The translations under genes and the position numbers were made by a program. Shown here one piece after another: positions 18,637-41,319 of a stretch of 64,000 nucleotides of DNA. The notes beneath the pieces are model-generated. The model was not told where the DNA came from, searched no databases, and saw nothing but the letters and a program-made list of their open reading frames with translations. This stretch comes from Hyphomicrobiales bacterium (GTDB lineage: Bacteria; Pseudomonadota; Alphaproteobacteria; Parvibaculales; Parvibaculaceae): contig WGND01000003.1 in NCBI GenBank assembly GCA_016124805.1, forward strand, positions 310,001-374,000. The letters run 5' to 3'. Positions within the stretch are counted from its first letter, which is position 1, and each line of letters opens with the position of its first letter.

Positions 18637-19260
18637 CTAGGCGTAGGCGTATTCGCCGCCCTTTTTGAGCGCCTGCTGATAGGCGGGACGCGCCTGAATA
18701 CCCGCCAGATATTTTGCCATGTTGGGATAGGACTGGATCATGCCGCGACCCTTGGCGATTTCGACGGGAAAGCTCATGGCGAAATCTGCAGCGGTCAGGC
18801 TGTTGCCCACAAAATAGGGCGCCTTTCCCAGTTCGGCTTCCATGTAGTCAAAATGGTTCTTGATTTCGCTGTCGATGCGCGGATGCAGCGGCGCCCCGGC
18901 CTCACCCAGACGACCGACATAAAGCGCCAGAAGCAGCGGCGTCATGGCTGAACCTTCGGCAAAATGCAGCCAATACTGATAACGATAGAAATCCGGCGTG
19001 TCGTCCTTGGGTGCGAATTTGCCCTTGCCGTAATTGCGGGCGAGATAATCCAGAATGGCCGATGACTCCGCAATGATCTGGCCCTTGTCCTCAATCACCG
19101 GCGATTTGCCGAGCGGGTGGATGGCCTTGAGCTCGGGCGGTGCCAGATTGGTGACAGCATCACGCTGGTAGTGGCGGATCTCATAGTCGAGACCCATTTC
19201 CTCAAGCGCCCAGAGAATGCGCTGCGAGCGTGAATTGTTGAGATGATGGACGATGATCAT
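18637..19260 (-). CDS. Glutathione S-transferase family protein
   Basis: This 207-residue protein has the thioredoxin-like N-terminal domain with NNSRSQRILWALEE, where Ser of NxSRS is the likely glutathione-activating residue. HPLGKSPVIED follows with the cis-Pro, then IIAESSAILDYLARNY. An all-helical C-terminal domain contains SLTAADFAMSFPVE. It matches cytoplasmic bacterial GSTs that detoxify electrophiles or serve in catabolism. A 16-bp palindrome lies 84 bp upstream and may be its operator. The substrate is unknown. Confidence 0.92.
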   Translation of the reverse strand: MIIVHHLNNSRSQRILWALEEMGLDYEIRHYQRDAVTNLAPPELKAIHPLGKSPVIEDKGQIIAESSAILDYLARNYGKGKFAPKDDTPDFYRYQYWLHFAEGSAMTPLLLALYVGRLGEAGAPLHPRIDSEIKNHFDYMEAELGKAPYFVGNSLTAADFAMSFPVEIAKGRGMIQSYPNMAKYLAGIQARPAYQQALKKGGEYAYA

Positions 19261-19343
19261 GAGGGTCCCCCTGCCGTCTTTGCGGCCTTGTTGCTGGAAT
19301 CAAATTTGATGCCTGAACCTAGGGGATAATGGCGGCTTTGCCG

Positions 19344-19359
19344 ATCACGCTTGCGTGAT
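19344..19359. promoter_or_regulatory. 16-bp palindrome upstream of the GST gene
   Basis: ATCACGC-TT-GCGTGAT is an inverted repeat with 7-bp arms. The central CGCTTGCG is shared with a similar dyad at 34898-34911, so both may be bound by the same kind of dimeric regulator. Confidence 0.4.
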
Positions 19360-19461
19360 GGAACAACATGCATTTTTCATGTATCGGCCTCATGGACATT
19401 ACAGTTAGCGTGACTTATCATTTTCAAGACTGCAGCGCGGTGAATCGGGGGAGGAACCGGC

Positions 19462-19524
19462 GCAGCAGCCAGGTGAAGACCTGAGGCCCCGGCGGTATGG
19501 CAGAAATGTCATCCGCCGGGCTGC
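19462..19524 (+). ncRNA. Candidate structured RNA upstream of efflux operon
   Basis: The segment can form a three-way junction. The closing stem is GCAGC (19462-19466) with GCTGC (19520-19524). The first arm is CAGGT-GAAG-ACCTG (19470-19483). The second arm is CCCGGCGG / CCGCCGGG, continued after one unpaired T by ATGGCA / TGTCAT and closed by a GAAA tetraloop (19488-19520). The shared G at 19520 can serve only one stem. It does not match any riboswitch or RNA family I can recall. Its distance of 294 bp from the efflux start leaves open whether it is a cis element or a separate small RNA. Confidence 0.45.
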
Positions 19525-19817
19525 CACTTTAGCCTTTCGGCCAGAAAATCAGCCCGCTACATTGAAATTCCGCTCTGAACCCCCATTTCCACTTGGGTTG
19601 CTGGATCCATGCTGCGTTGCAGCAGGGCTACAATTACTCTGAAACTGATCTAAATTTCCTGTCCATAAGGTGACGGGACAAGCAGGCTTTGCTCGTTAGA
19701 CCAAATGACTGCTATATGCCGTGACGATTTCGGGAAACTGCTGTCGTTTCCTCCCCCTTTGAGCGCCGCGACTTTGTTGATCGGATTGCTCTGCCTTGCT
19801 TACTCGGAGAATGATCC

Positions 19818-20991: not shown

Positions 20992-23900
20992 ATGAATTTT
21001 ACAGACATCTTCATTCGCCGGCCTGTCCTTGCGACGGTTGTGAGCCTGCTCATTTTCGTGCTGGGCGTGCGGTCGCTGTTTCTGCTGCCGGTGCTGCAAT
21101 ATCCCCGGACCGAGAATGCCGTGGTGACGGTGAGCACGACCTATTTCGGTGCGAGTGCCGATCTGGTGGCCGGCTTCATCACGACGCCGCTTGAGAATGC
21201 GATCTCGCAGGCCAATGGCATCGATTACATCTCATCGACCAGCGCGGCGGGATCCTCCACCATTCAGGCAACGCTGCGTCTCAATTATGATCCGAACAAG
21301 GCGCTGACTGAAATCATCAGCAAGGTAAATTCGGTCAACAACCAGCTGCCGAGCGATGCGCAGGAGCCGGTCATCAGCATTGCTGTCGGTGAGACCATCG
21401 ACTCCATGTATATCGGCTTCAATTCGGAAGTTCTGTCACGCAACAAGATGACGGATTATCTGATCCGCGTGGTGCAGCCAAAGATTCAGTCCGTTGACGG
21501 CGTGCAGGAAGTCGAAATCCTTGGTGAAAAGCGCTTTGCCATTCGTGCCTGGCTCGATCCGCAAAAGCTTGCGGCCTATGACCTGACGGCGACTGACGTG
21601 AGCCAGGCTATTTCAGCCAACGACTATCTCTCAGCTGTAGGCTCGACACGCGGGCAGATGGTCAAGGTCGATCTGGTCGCCTCGACCAACATGAAGTCGC
21701 TGGCCGAATTCCGTCAGCTCATCATCAAGTCAAAGGACGGGGCCTTTGTCCGCCTCTCCGATGTCGCCAATGTGACGCTGGGCGCGGAAGAATATGATTC
21801 CGCGGCGGGCTTTGACGGCAAGGCTTCGGTGCAGCTCGGCATCAAGGTGGCGCCGGGCGCCAATCTGCTTGATGTGATGCAGCGCGTTCGCGATACCTTC
21901 CCCGAGGTGCAGGCGCAATTGCCTGTCGGGCTGAGTGGCGAGATTGCCTATGACGCGACAGCCTTCGTGAACAGCGCGATCAATGAAGTGGTGCGCACGC
22001 TAGTGGAAGCACTGGTCATCGTTACGCTGGTGGTGTTCGCCTTTCTGGGCTCACCGCGTTCGGTCCTTATTCCCACGATTGCCATTCCGTTGTCGCTGGT
22101 CGGCACTTTCACCGTGATGCTGATGCTTGGCTTCTCGATCAACCTGCTGACCCTGCTGGCGCTGGTGCTCTCGATTGGTCTTGTGGTGGATGACGCGATT
22201 ATTGTTGTGGAAAACATCAACCGACATCTGGAGGAGGGCATGCGGCCCTTTGATGCCTCCATATTGGCGGCGCGCGAATTGACCGGGCCAATTGTTGCTA
22301 TGACCATTGTGCTTGTGGCCGTTTATGTGCCGATTGGTTTTCTTGGTGGTCTGACGGGTGCGCTTTTCACGGAGTTTGCCTTCACGCTTGTTGGCGCCGT
22401 GACCATGTCAGCCATTATCGCGCTGACGCTATCGCCGATGATGAGCGCGCGCGTGCTGCGCGCCAATAACGAGATTGACTCCGAATGGGAACGCAAGCTC
22501 GTTGGCTTTATTGACAAGCGCTTCGAAGAACTGCTGCATGTCTATAAGCGACTGCTGCATGGTGCCTTGAGTTACACGCCTGTCGTGATGGTTTTCGCAG
22601 GTATCATTATTGGCAGTCTTTACTTCCTCTATGGCGCCTCCAAGACCGAGCTTGCGCCGCAGGAAGACCTCGGCATCATGATTTCTTTGGTAACACCGCC
22701 TGCGAATGCGACGGTAGATCAGCGCTTGATCTATCAGCAACAGGTTTGGGAAGTGTATGACAGCCATCCCGAACGCGGCCATGTGTTTCAGTTCACCGCT
22801 CCGGGGCGGACGATTTCGGGCATGGTGTTGACGCCATGGGATGAGCGCAGCAAGACATCAAATACACTTGTGCCTGAAATTCAGCAAGAGGTGGACAAGA
22901 TTTCAGGCGCGCGTATCGCTGTGATTCAGCCGCCCTCGCTGCCCGGGTCGAGTGGTTTCCCTGTTGAGTTCGTCATTCAGACAACCGACTCCTTTGAACA
23001 GCTGAACAAGGTGGCCCAGGATTTTCTTGCCAAAGTTCAAGCGTCCGGCCAGTTCATATTTGTTGATTCAAACCTGAAGTTTGACAAGCCGCAGGCGCGG
23101 ATCGAGATTGATCGCGAGAAGGTTGCGGAGCTTGGGCTGACGATGCGCGATGTCGGCGGCTCGCTGACATCGCTGTTGGGTGGTGGCTATGTCAATTATT
23201 TCAGCCTTGATGGCCGCTCTTATAAAGTGATCCCGCAGGTCAAGCAGGCCGATCGTCTGAACGTGGATCAGCTCAACAATCTCTACATCAAGACAGGCGC
23301 AGGAACTTCCATTCCGCTGTCAACGGTGGCGCATATCACCAAGGAAGTGGTGCCGCAGAATCTGGGTCATTTCCAGCAGCTCAATGCGGCCACAATCTCC
23401 GGCGTGCCGATGCCCGGCCTCACGAGTGGGCAGGTGCTGGCCTATCTTCAGGAGCTGGCCAAGACCGAGTTGCCGCAGGGCTACACCGTCGACTACTCCG
23501 GTCAGTCGCGTCAATATGTGCAGGAATCTTCCGCGCTAGTTGTGACCTTCATGTTTGCCATGGTCATTATTTTCCTCGCGCTGGCGGCCCAGTTTGAAAG
23601 CTTCCGTGACCCTGTCATCATTCTGGTGTCAGTGCCCATGTCGATCTGCGGCGCGTTGATTTTCATCGCACTCGGCCTGGGTGGGGCAAGCCTCAACATC
23701 TATACGCAGGTGGGTCTGGTGACGCTGATCGGCCTGATCAGCAAGCACGGCATTCTGATGGTGGAATTTGCCAATTCGCTGCAGAAGGAAGGCCTGAACA
23801 AGCGCGAAGCTATTGAGGAGGCGGCAGCCATTCGTCTGCGCCCGATCCTGATGACAACGGCTGCCATGGTATTGGCGGTGATTCCCCTCATCCTGGCGTC

Positions 23901-24069
23901 GGGAGCGGGTGCGGCATCGCGCTATAATCTGGGTCTGGTGATTGCGACCGGGCTGTCCATCGGCACAGGCTTTACGCTGTTTGTGGTGCCTGCCGTCTAT
24001 TCGCTGATTGCCGGCGACCATCACAGCAATGCGGACCTGCATCCCGAAGAGGATGAAGCGCTGGTCTAA
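20992..24069 (+). CDS. RND efflux pump inner-membrane transporter
   Basis: This 1025-residue HAE1-type proton-drug antiporter exports small molecules with the adaptor encoded upstream. Twelve membrane helices and two large periplasmic loops are in the expected places. Proton relay residues are visible: Asp400-Asp401 in SIGLVVDDAIIVVENI (helix 4) and Lys918 in LISKHGILMVEFAN (helix 10). The N-terminus FTDIFIRRPVLATVVSLLI is typical, and the closest-looking group is MexI/MdtC-like. The substrate range is unknown. A terminator follows directly. Confidence 0.95.
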   Translation: MNFTDIFIRRPVLATVVSLLIFVLGVRSLFLLPVLQYPRTENAVVTVSTTYFGASADLVAGFITTPLENAISQANGIDYISSTSAAGSSTIQATLRLNYDPNKALTEIISKVNSVNNQLPSDAQEPVISIAVGETIDSMYIGFNSEVLSRNKMTDYLIRVVQPKIQSVDGVQEVEILGEKRFAIRAWLDPQKLAAYDLTATDVSQAISANDYLSAVGSTRGQMVKVDLVASTNMKSLAEFRQLIIKSKDGAFVRLSDVANVTLGAEEYDSAAGFDGKASVQLGIKVAPGANLLDVMQRVRDTFPEVQAQLPVGLSGEIAYDATAFVNSAINEVVRTLVEALVIVTLVVFAFLGSPRSVLIPTIAIPLSLVGTFTVMLMLGFSINLLTLLALVLSIGLVVDDAIIVVENINRHLEEGMRPFDASILAARELTGPIVAMTIVLVAVYVPIGFLGGLTGALFTEFAFTLVGAVTMSAIIALTLSPMMSARVLRANNEIDSEWERKLVGFIDKRFEELLHVYKRLLHGALSYTPVVMVFAGIIIGSLYFLYGASKTELAPQEDLGIMISLVTPPANATVDQRLIYQQQVWEVYDSHPERGHVFQFTAPGRTISGMVLTPWDERSKTSNTLVPEIQQEVDKISGARIAVIQPPSLPGSSGFPVEFVIQTTDSFEQLNKVAQDFLAKVQASGQFIFVDSNLKFDKPQARIEIDREKVAELGLTMRDVGGSLTSLLGGGYVNYFSLDGRSYKVIPQVKQADRLNVDQLNNLYIKTGAGTSIPLSTVAHITKEVVPQNLGHFQQLNAATISGVPMPGLTSGQVLAYLQELAKTELPQGYTVDYSGQSRQYVQESSALVVTFMFAMVIIFLALAAQFESFRDPVIILVSVPMSICGALIFIALGLGGASLNIYTQVGLVTLIGLISKHGILMVEFANSLQKEGLNKREAIEEAAAIRLRPILMTTAAMVLAVIPLILASGAGAASRYNLGLVIATGLSIGTGFTLFVVPAVYSLIAGDHHSNADLHPEEDEALV

Positions 24070-24093
24070 GCGCTCAGGCAACAGCCGAAACGG

Positions 24094-24121
24094 AAAAAGG
24101 CCGGGCAATGCCCGGCCTTTT
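24094..24121 (+). terminator. Rho-independent terminator of the efflux operon
   Basis: A perfect AAAGGCCGGGC / GCCCGGCCTTT stem with a 3-nt loop (AAT) ends in TTTT. The A-rich left arm means it could also work on the opposite strand for the gene at 24154. Confidence 0.9.
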
Positions 24122-41275: not shown

Positions 41276-41319
41276 GCCGACCCGCCGCTGTCGGGGGAGG
41301 GGGACGCTGGCGGGTCGGC
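41276..41319. repeat. 11-bp perfect inverted repeat between wrbA and pirin
   Basis: GCCGACCCGCC (41276-41286) and GGCGGGTCGGC (41309-41319) flank a 22-nt G-rich loop. The hairpin has no U-tract on the minus strand, but lies just before the pirin ribosome-binding region, so it could stabilise the message or attenuate read-through. Confidence 0.5.

Follow-up and report, generated by a model that had tools for sequence, protein, structure and literature searches.

The small RNA GsrN of Caulobacter exposes a C-rich loop in its 5' hairpin, which pairs with the G-rich leader of katG, an interaction that has been genetically proven (PMC5869019). The element analyzed here, which lies upstream of an RND efflux operon, is similar to GsrN in being a putative alphaproteobacterial small RNA whose 5' hairpin loop shows a short G/C-tract match to an mRNA leader. 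In contrast to GsrN, the polarity is reversed, with a G-rich loop and a C-rich leader, and the element is known from sequence inference alone and has no Rfam match. If our interpretation is true, it would represent the mirror image of GsrN, in which the sRNA loop is C-rich and the mRNA is G-rich. A second system for comparison is UpsM of Rhodobacter sphaeroides, which ends at a Rho-independent terminator and is itself conserved in its family (PMC5089854). UpsM and the putative RNA of our element both derive from the long 5' leader of an operon and possibly act in trans, but neither a Rho-independent terminator nor a homologue was found for the element. In Sinorhizobium, an antisense RNA (as-smeR) and the leader peptide peTrpL act on the repressor mRNA of smeABR (PMC7298713). 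There, as proposed for our case, a multidrug efflux operon of an alphaproteobacterium is controlled by RNA at the post-transcriptional level; the difference is that for the element we propose an independent hairpin RNA whose loop is complementary to the leaders of the pumps. The literature searched contained no description of the element, which does not prove that none exists.

Genomic context and predicted fold of the element

The window, i.e. the whole stretch of DNA analyzed, comprises 64,000 nucleotides from a Hyphomicrobiales bacterium. In agreement with the original prediction, a 557-bp gap (19261-19817) between a divergent GST gene and an RND operon (RND1) is devoid of credible genes. 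Inside the gap there is a G+C-rich island (about 0.6, versus 0.46-0.54 across most of the flanking gap). The following features are relevant here:

18637-19260, minus strand: divergent GST gene, left border of the gap
19393-19421, plus strand: sigma-70-like promoter TGGACA-17-TATCAT (10/12, consensus match only)
19430-19468, plus strand: H1, predicted 5' hairpin with the 14-nt G-rich loop GAAUCGGGGGAGGA
19447-19456, plus strand: proposed pairing seed GGGGGAGGAA in the H1 loop, exact reverse complement of 19748-19757
19470-19483, plus strand: H2, predicted hairpin CAGGU-GAAG-ACCUG
19485-19525, plus strand: H3, long GAAA-capped hairpin with 14 pairs, one bulge and basal GGC/GCC
19713-19718, plus strand: TATATG, possible -10 box of a promoter belonging to the pump itself, scoring under the cut-off used in the promoter scan
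19748-19757, plus strand: proposed target UUCCUCCCCC (= TTCCTCCCCC) in the RND1 leader, 60 nt ahead of the start codon
19818-20978, plus strand: RND1 membrane-fusion protein, the pump adaptor P0001 (386 aa, GTG start; HlyD_D23 2.7e-31, HlyD_3 1.1e-23)
20992-24069, plus strand: RND transporter (1025 aa; ACR_tran 3.7e-266)

The element is overlapped by an ORF of 38 aa (19368-19484); it gave no match in Pfam and was discarded.

When the plus strand is folded together with its natural 5' flank, three consecutive hairpins (H1, H2 and H3) are predicted between 19430 and 19525. H2 and H3 had been recognized in the original prediction, and both arms described there are found in the sequence: CAGGU-GAAG-ACCUG, and the 14-bp, GAAA-closed arm interrupted by one base, which consists of 8 + 6 pairs including one G.U (CCCGGCGG-U-AUGGCA / UGUCAU-CCGCCGGG). 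H1 had been overlooked, and the multi-branched topology suggested earlier is not the favoured fold. The sequences of the supposed closing stem GCAGC/GCUGC do exist at 19462-19466 and 19520-19524, but they pair only in an RNA truncated at 19462, because GCAGC is used by H1 once the 5' flank is included.

The claim of unusual stability proved correct. None of 200 shuffles matched the 63-nt fold (19462-19524; -36.8 kcal/mol, z -5.4), and none of 200 dinucleotide shuffles matched the 110-nt fold (-56.3 kcal/mol, z -4.6). H3 alone reached z -4.9 (0/200 shuffles as good) and H1, taken as a 37-nt hairpin, z -3.0 (2/200 equally good). In a fold scan of the whole window (1598 segments of 80 nt, in 80-nt steps on both strands, with 16 shuffles each), the plus-strand segment at 19441 ranked first for stability relative to shuffles and its minus-strand counterpart 77th; segments displaced from 19441 by 10-20 nt ranked 2nd to 12th, and a segment starting at 19431, which cuts H3, ranked 782nd. 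The runners-up of the scan were two minus-strand segments, at 41281 (z about -4.5) and at 24081 (z about -4.1). The latter spans a perfect 13-bp inverted repeat (AAAAGGCCGGGCA-t-TGCCCGGCCTTTT, 24095-24121) directly 3' of the RND transporter gene, which looks like the terminator of the RND operon.

Compared by strand, the 110-nt segment showed z -3.25 on the plus versus -1.38 on the minus strand, and both this bias and the G.U pair of H3 are consistent with a plus-strand RNA. A single sigma-70-like site was found in the promoter scan, where 0.4 were expected from shuffles; it ends at 19421, 8 nt ahead of H1, and transcription would be expected to start at about 19428. It is very improbable that the minus strand is the functional one, giving rise to an RNA ahead of the GST gene whose C-rich H1 loop (UUCCUCCCCC) would be a decoy or a relative of the pump leaders: H1 is a good hairpin on this strand too (z -2.5) and carries the pump-leader 10-mer there, but the fold is weaker and no promoter-like site was found on that strand. 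According to these models, a folded plus-strand RNA is likely to exist at the element. The earlier claim of a structured RNA ahead of the RND operon is thus supported by fold statistics, strand bias, the promoter-like site and the absence of an Rfam match.

At gathering score, a tRNA was the sole match to the covariance models of Rfam 15 across the entire window, and a scan of the gap at relaxed thresholds (E up to 10) yielded nothing credible. A DNA search of 41 related genomes, including its own, revealed no homologue of the element; the sole non-self match, 32 nt in genome G039 (locus L002), concerns another part of the gap and is no RNA homologue. A second copy was not found in its own genome, and the single-copy element is not an ordinary dispersed repeat. 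A covariance model (R1), made from the one element sequence entered twice, recovered no homologue besides the element itself from 27 genus, 40 order and 385 class genomes. Outside the element, no match scored above 24 bits (E 0.012), and the foreign matches inspected were mostly inside ORFs or chance-like, none of them combining three hairpins with a G-rich loop. Homologues near related genes, the hallmark of a conserved structured RNA or riboswitch, were not seen in the genus, order and class sample, and as no homologue was found, there are no covarying pairs that would demonstrate the selection for structure suggested initially. Plasmid and phage collections contained no match to the element, a viral scan gave no match for the pump protein, and the gap was not recognizable at the inspected loci around orthologues of the GST gene. 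Orthologues of the pump adaptor occur in only six other members of the genus (sampled as the genomes of 27 species) and are only 45-54% identical, so that close relatives are lacking; the adaptor's nearest named protein relative stems from a Micropepsaceae MAG (46%). The element is outside known RNA families and is a new candidate for a base-pairing small RNA or a leader RNA.

Complementarity between the H1 loop and two pump leaders

The 10-mer complementary to the H1 loop occurs at 8 sites in the 3,211,644 bp of the genome when both strands are counted, compared with 2 sites for a control in which the pattern was reversed. These 8 sites are the element itself, the RND1 leader, the leader of a second RND operon (RND2), four positions inside ORFs and one complement of a Shine-Dalgarno sequence. 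Besides RND1, the only C-rich copy located in a leader lies 58 nt before the RND2 membrane-fusion gene P0002 (HlyD_D23, CusB_dom_1), and as the adaptor family has 12 matches in this genome, a second hit in an RND leader is unlikely to have arisen by chance. The two leaders share a 13-mer (TTCCTCCCCCTTT, reaching 19760) that has exactly two copies in the genome and whose conserved TTT is unpaired with the H1 loop. The loop is complementary over 10 nt to two RND mRNA leaders, a feature expected of a GsrN-like small RNA.

In 2000 dinucleotide shuffles, 10-nt complementarity was reached 42 times for the RND1 region, 31 times for the RND2 leader and 3 times for both. G-runs and C-runs match easily, as the single-target frequencies of 1.5-2% show, and the complementarity was noticed post hoc. 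With target folding counted, the RND1 and RND2 sites bind the loop better than 1481/1481 random 110-nt segments of the window; for RND2, this top rank is partly by construction, since that site came from the exact 10-mer search. The H1 loop is weakly paired within itself, and 3-6 kcal/mol are needed to open it; with this cost included, the net energy of the pairing comes to about -11 to -13 kcal/mol. If hybrid energy is the sole measure, RND1 is equalled or surpassed by two further sites in the window (the element's own complement excluded). A role of the G-rich loop as Shine-Dalgarno sequence was dismissed, there being no start codon at a usable distance. Taken as a prediction from sequence, pairing of the H1 loop with the leader sites is suggestive, and the complementarity to two RND leaders lends indirect support to the initial idea that an RNA might control a drug pump.

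A more trivial explanation would be that the element is a stable, non-regulatory inverted-repeat region or remnant whose loop matches the leaders through coincidence of a G-run with C-runs. We regard this as possible though rather doubtful. The element is known from a single genome, similar hybrid energies are found at several other window sites, and single-target complementarity is reached by the above fraction of shuffles, all of which would agree with coincidence. However, coincidence does not account for the fact that the best fold of the window shows a plus-strand bias and a suitably placed promoter-like site, that the G.U pair is tolerated only by an RNA of the plus strand, and that both targets, which are both RND leaders, were matched together in so few shuffles.

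The main mechanistic rival assumes the same pairing within a single molecule. The element would then be the 5' end of a single RND1 mRNA leader of about 390 nt, and its G-rich loop, by pairing in cis with a C-rich site that follows 300 nt later, would fold the leader into a long-range switch in place of a free small RNA. Indeed, no intrinsic (Rho-independent) terminator was detected at 19485-19540, where H3 is followed by CACUUUAGCCUUU and no U-run; lacking a U-run, H3 is not a canonical terminator, and this stretch contains no terminator-like site from which a leader-derived sRNA could arise by intrinsic termination, as for UpsM. In addition, element and pump are encoded on the same strand without an intervening gene, and the predicted fold of 19428-19817 contains the 10-bp long-range helix (z -3.6, 0/100 shuffles). 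Nevertheless, such a cis-acting leader is unlikely, considering that a promoter-like TATAT, with counterparts in the orthologues, precedes the pump start by about 100 nt (the TAT column of the box at 19713-19718 is kept in 7/7 orthologous upstream regions in the alignment), that a long leader element of this kind is absent from orthologous pumps, and that the presence of the site in RND2 would be left unexplained.

C-rich leaders of related RND pumps

C-rich tracts (C5+ or CCTCCC) were present upstream of 7/7 RND1-type genes versus 3/23 other membrane-fusion genes fetched, with starts inferred from protein match and some upstream ends approximate. Runs of at least five C were seen, at a distance of about 170 nt at most, in six of the seven RND1-type upstream regions, and the remaining one carries CCCCTCCC; among the other 23 genes, one has a C run of at least five and two have CCTCCC. 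The background frequency of such tracts was 27/492 and 72/1278 in 100-nt windows. The RND1-type upstream regions L004-L009 combine C-rich tracts with a TATAT-like box about 90-105 nt ahead of the start, and the remaining upstream DNA differs. In L005 and L006, a G+C-rich hairpin (GCCGCC...GGCGGC) followed by a T-run is located on the minus strand some 400-600 nt ahead of the pump gene; it adjoins a short possible leader ORF and resembles an attenuator for a divergent gene.

Among RND2-type pumps (14 matches), C5+ runs were found in 10 of the 13 upstream regions examined. In six close RND2 orthologues, the C-rich stretch forms a hairpin loop inside a predicted three-way junction:

L122, 1375-1437: three-way-junction leader of a P0002 orthologue
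L123, 2686-2754: three-way-junction leader of a P0002 orthologue
L125, 1392-1459: three-way-junction leader of a P0002 orthologue
L126, 261-328: three-way-junction leader of a P0002 orthologue
L127, 2686-2754: three-way-junction leader of a P0002 orthologue, left arm largely lost
L131, 689-755: three-way-junction leader of a P0002 orthologue
L121, 1394-1471: the genome's own RND2 leader copy, predicted to adopt a similar three-way shape, CCUCCCCCUUU occupying the right-hand loop

One example of the C-rich loop is GCGCA-CCUCCCCCCUCCUC-UGCGC, and the predicted junction follows a palindrome, ATGTAATGTATATTACATTACA. In the alignment of the six orthologous leaders, 90.9% of cells are paired and double-sided changes are absent, and the fold of the genome's own RND2 leader does not surpass shuffled sequences (z -1.07). 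A covariance model (R2) built from these six close relatives recognized neither the leader in the window nor the own RND2 leader, and gave one match in 385 class genomes. Since R2 misses the own RND2 leader and double-sided changes are lacking, their kinship is judged from predicted folds alone. The three-way-junction leader has no Rfam match, and as modelled it is a candidate new leader RNA.

The 13-mer TTCCTCCCCCTTT might instead be a DNA operator for a regulator common to both RND operons, its reverse copy in the H1 loop being a further operator and RNA pairing playing no part. Such an operator would be in line with the identity of the two leaders extending beyond the part that pairs with the loop, and with a palindrome upstream of RND2, which we take to be of the TetR type. 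Yet the copy in the element comprises the 10-mer core only, and the location of the C-rich stretch of RND2 relatives in a conserved hairpin loop favours RNA; a DNA operator is therefore quite improbable. Among the relatives with C-rich leaders, no G-rich partner RNA was found. Judged by sequence comparison, the C-rich leader site appears to be common to these pumps, and the RNA proposed for the window is the only putative G-rich partner seen.

A possible role in efflux pump regulation

The explanation we tentatively put forward, with the chances still somewhat against it, is that the element encodes a lineage-specific small RNA of about 100 nt whose H1 pairs with the C-rich leader sites of RND1 and RND2. 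The three-hairpin RNA would be transcribed from the plus strand, from its own promoter and starting at about 19428, and its H1 loop (GGGGGAGGAA) would form 10 bp with UUCCUCCCCC in the leader of the adjacent RND1 mRNA and, in trans, pair with the identical leader site of RND2. We infer from these predictions that the element is transcribed, that its transcript is separate, and that pairing takes place in the cell and affects the pumps. Masking of the C-rich site by the RNA would alter pump expression. A C-rich upstream tract could serve Rho or a protein, and masking might relieve a negative leader element, e.g. loading of Rho on the C-rich tract, leading to up-regulation; the sign of the effect is a guess to which we lean only weakly. 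Around the RND1 start, the mRNA is predicted to be structured, with an opening cost of 9 kcal/mol. Regulation of RND pumps by loop pairing is plausible, with the chances likewise somewhat against it. The most specific version of this model, in which a lineage-specific RNA coordinates two RND pumps by a kissing interaction between its G-rich loop and C-rich leader loops, thereby building on a pre-existing C-rich element that is conserved in both pump families of the genus and presented by the second family in a loop of the three-way-junction leader, is rather unlikely to hold in full. If it were true, a single RNA would link the expression of two separate RND pumps via a common C-rich leader site, and C-rich leaders would represent a conserved point, amenable to testing, at which these Alphaproteobacteria control efflux.
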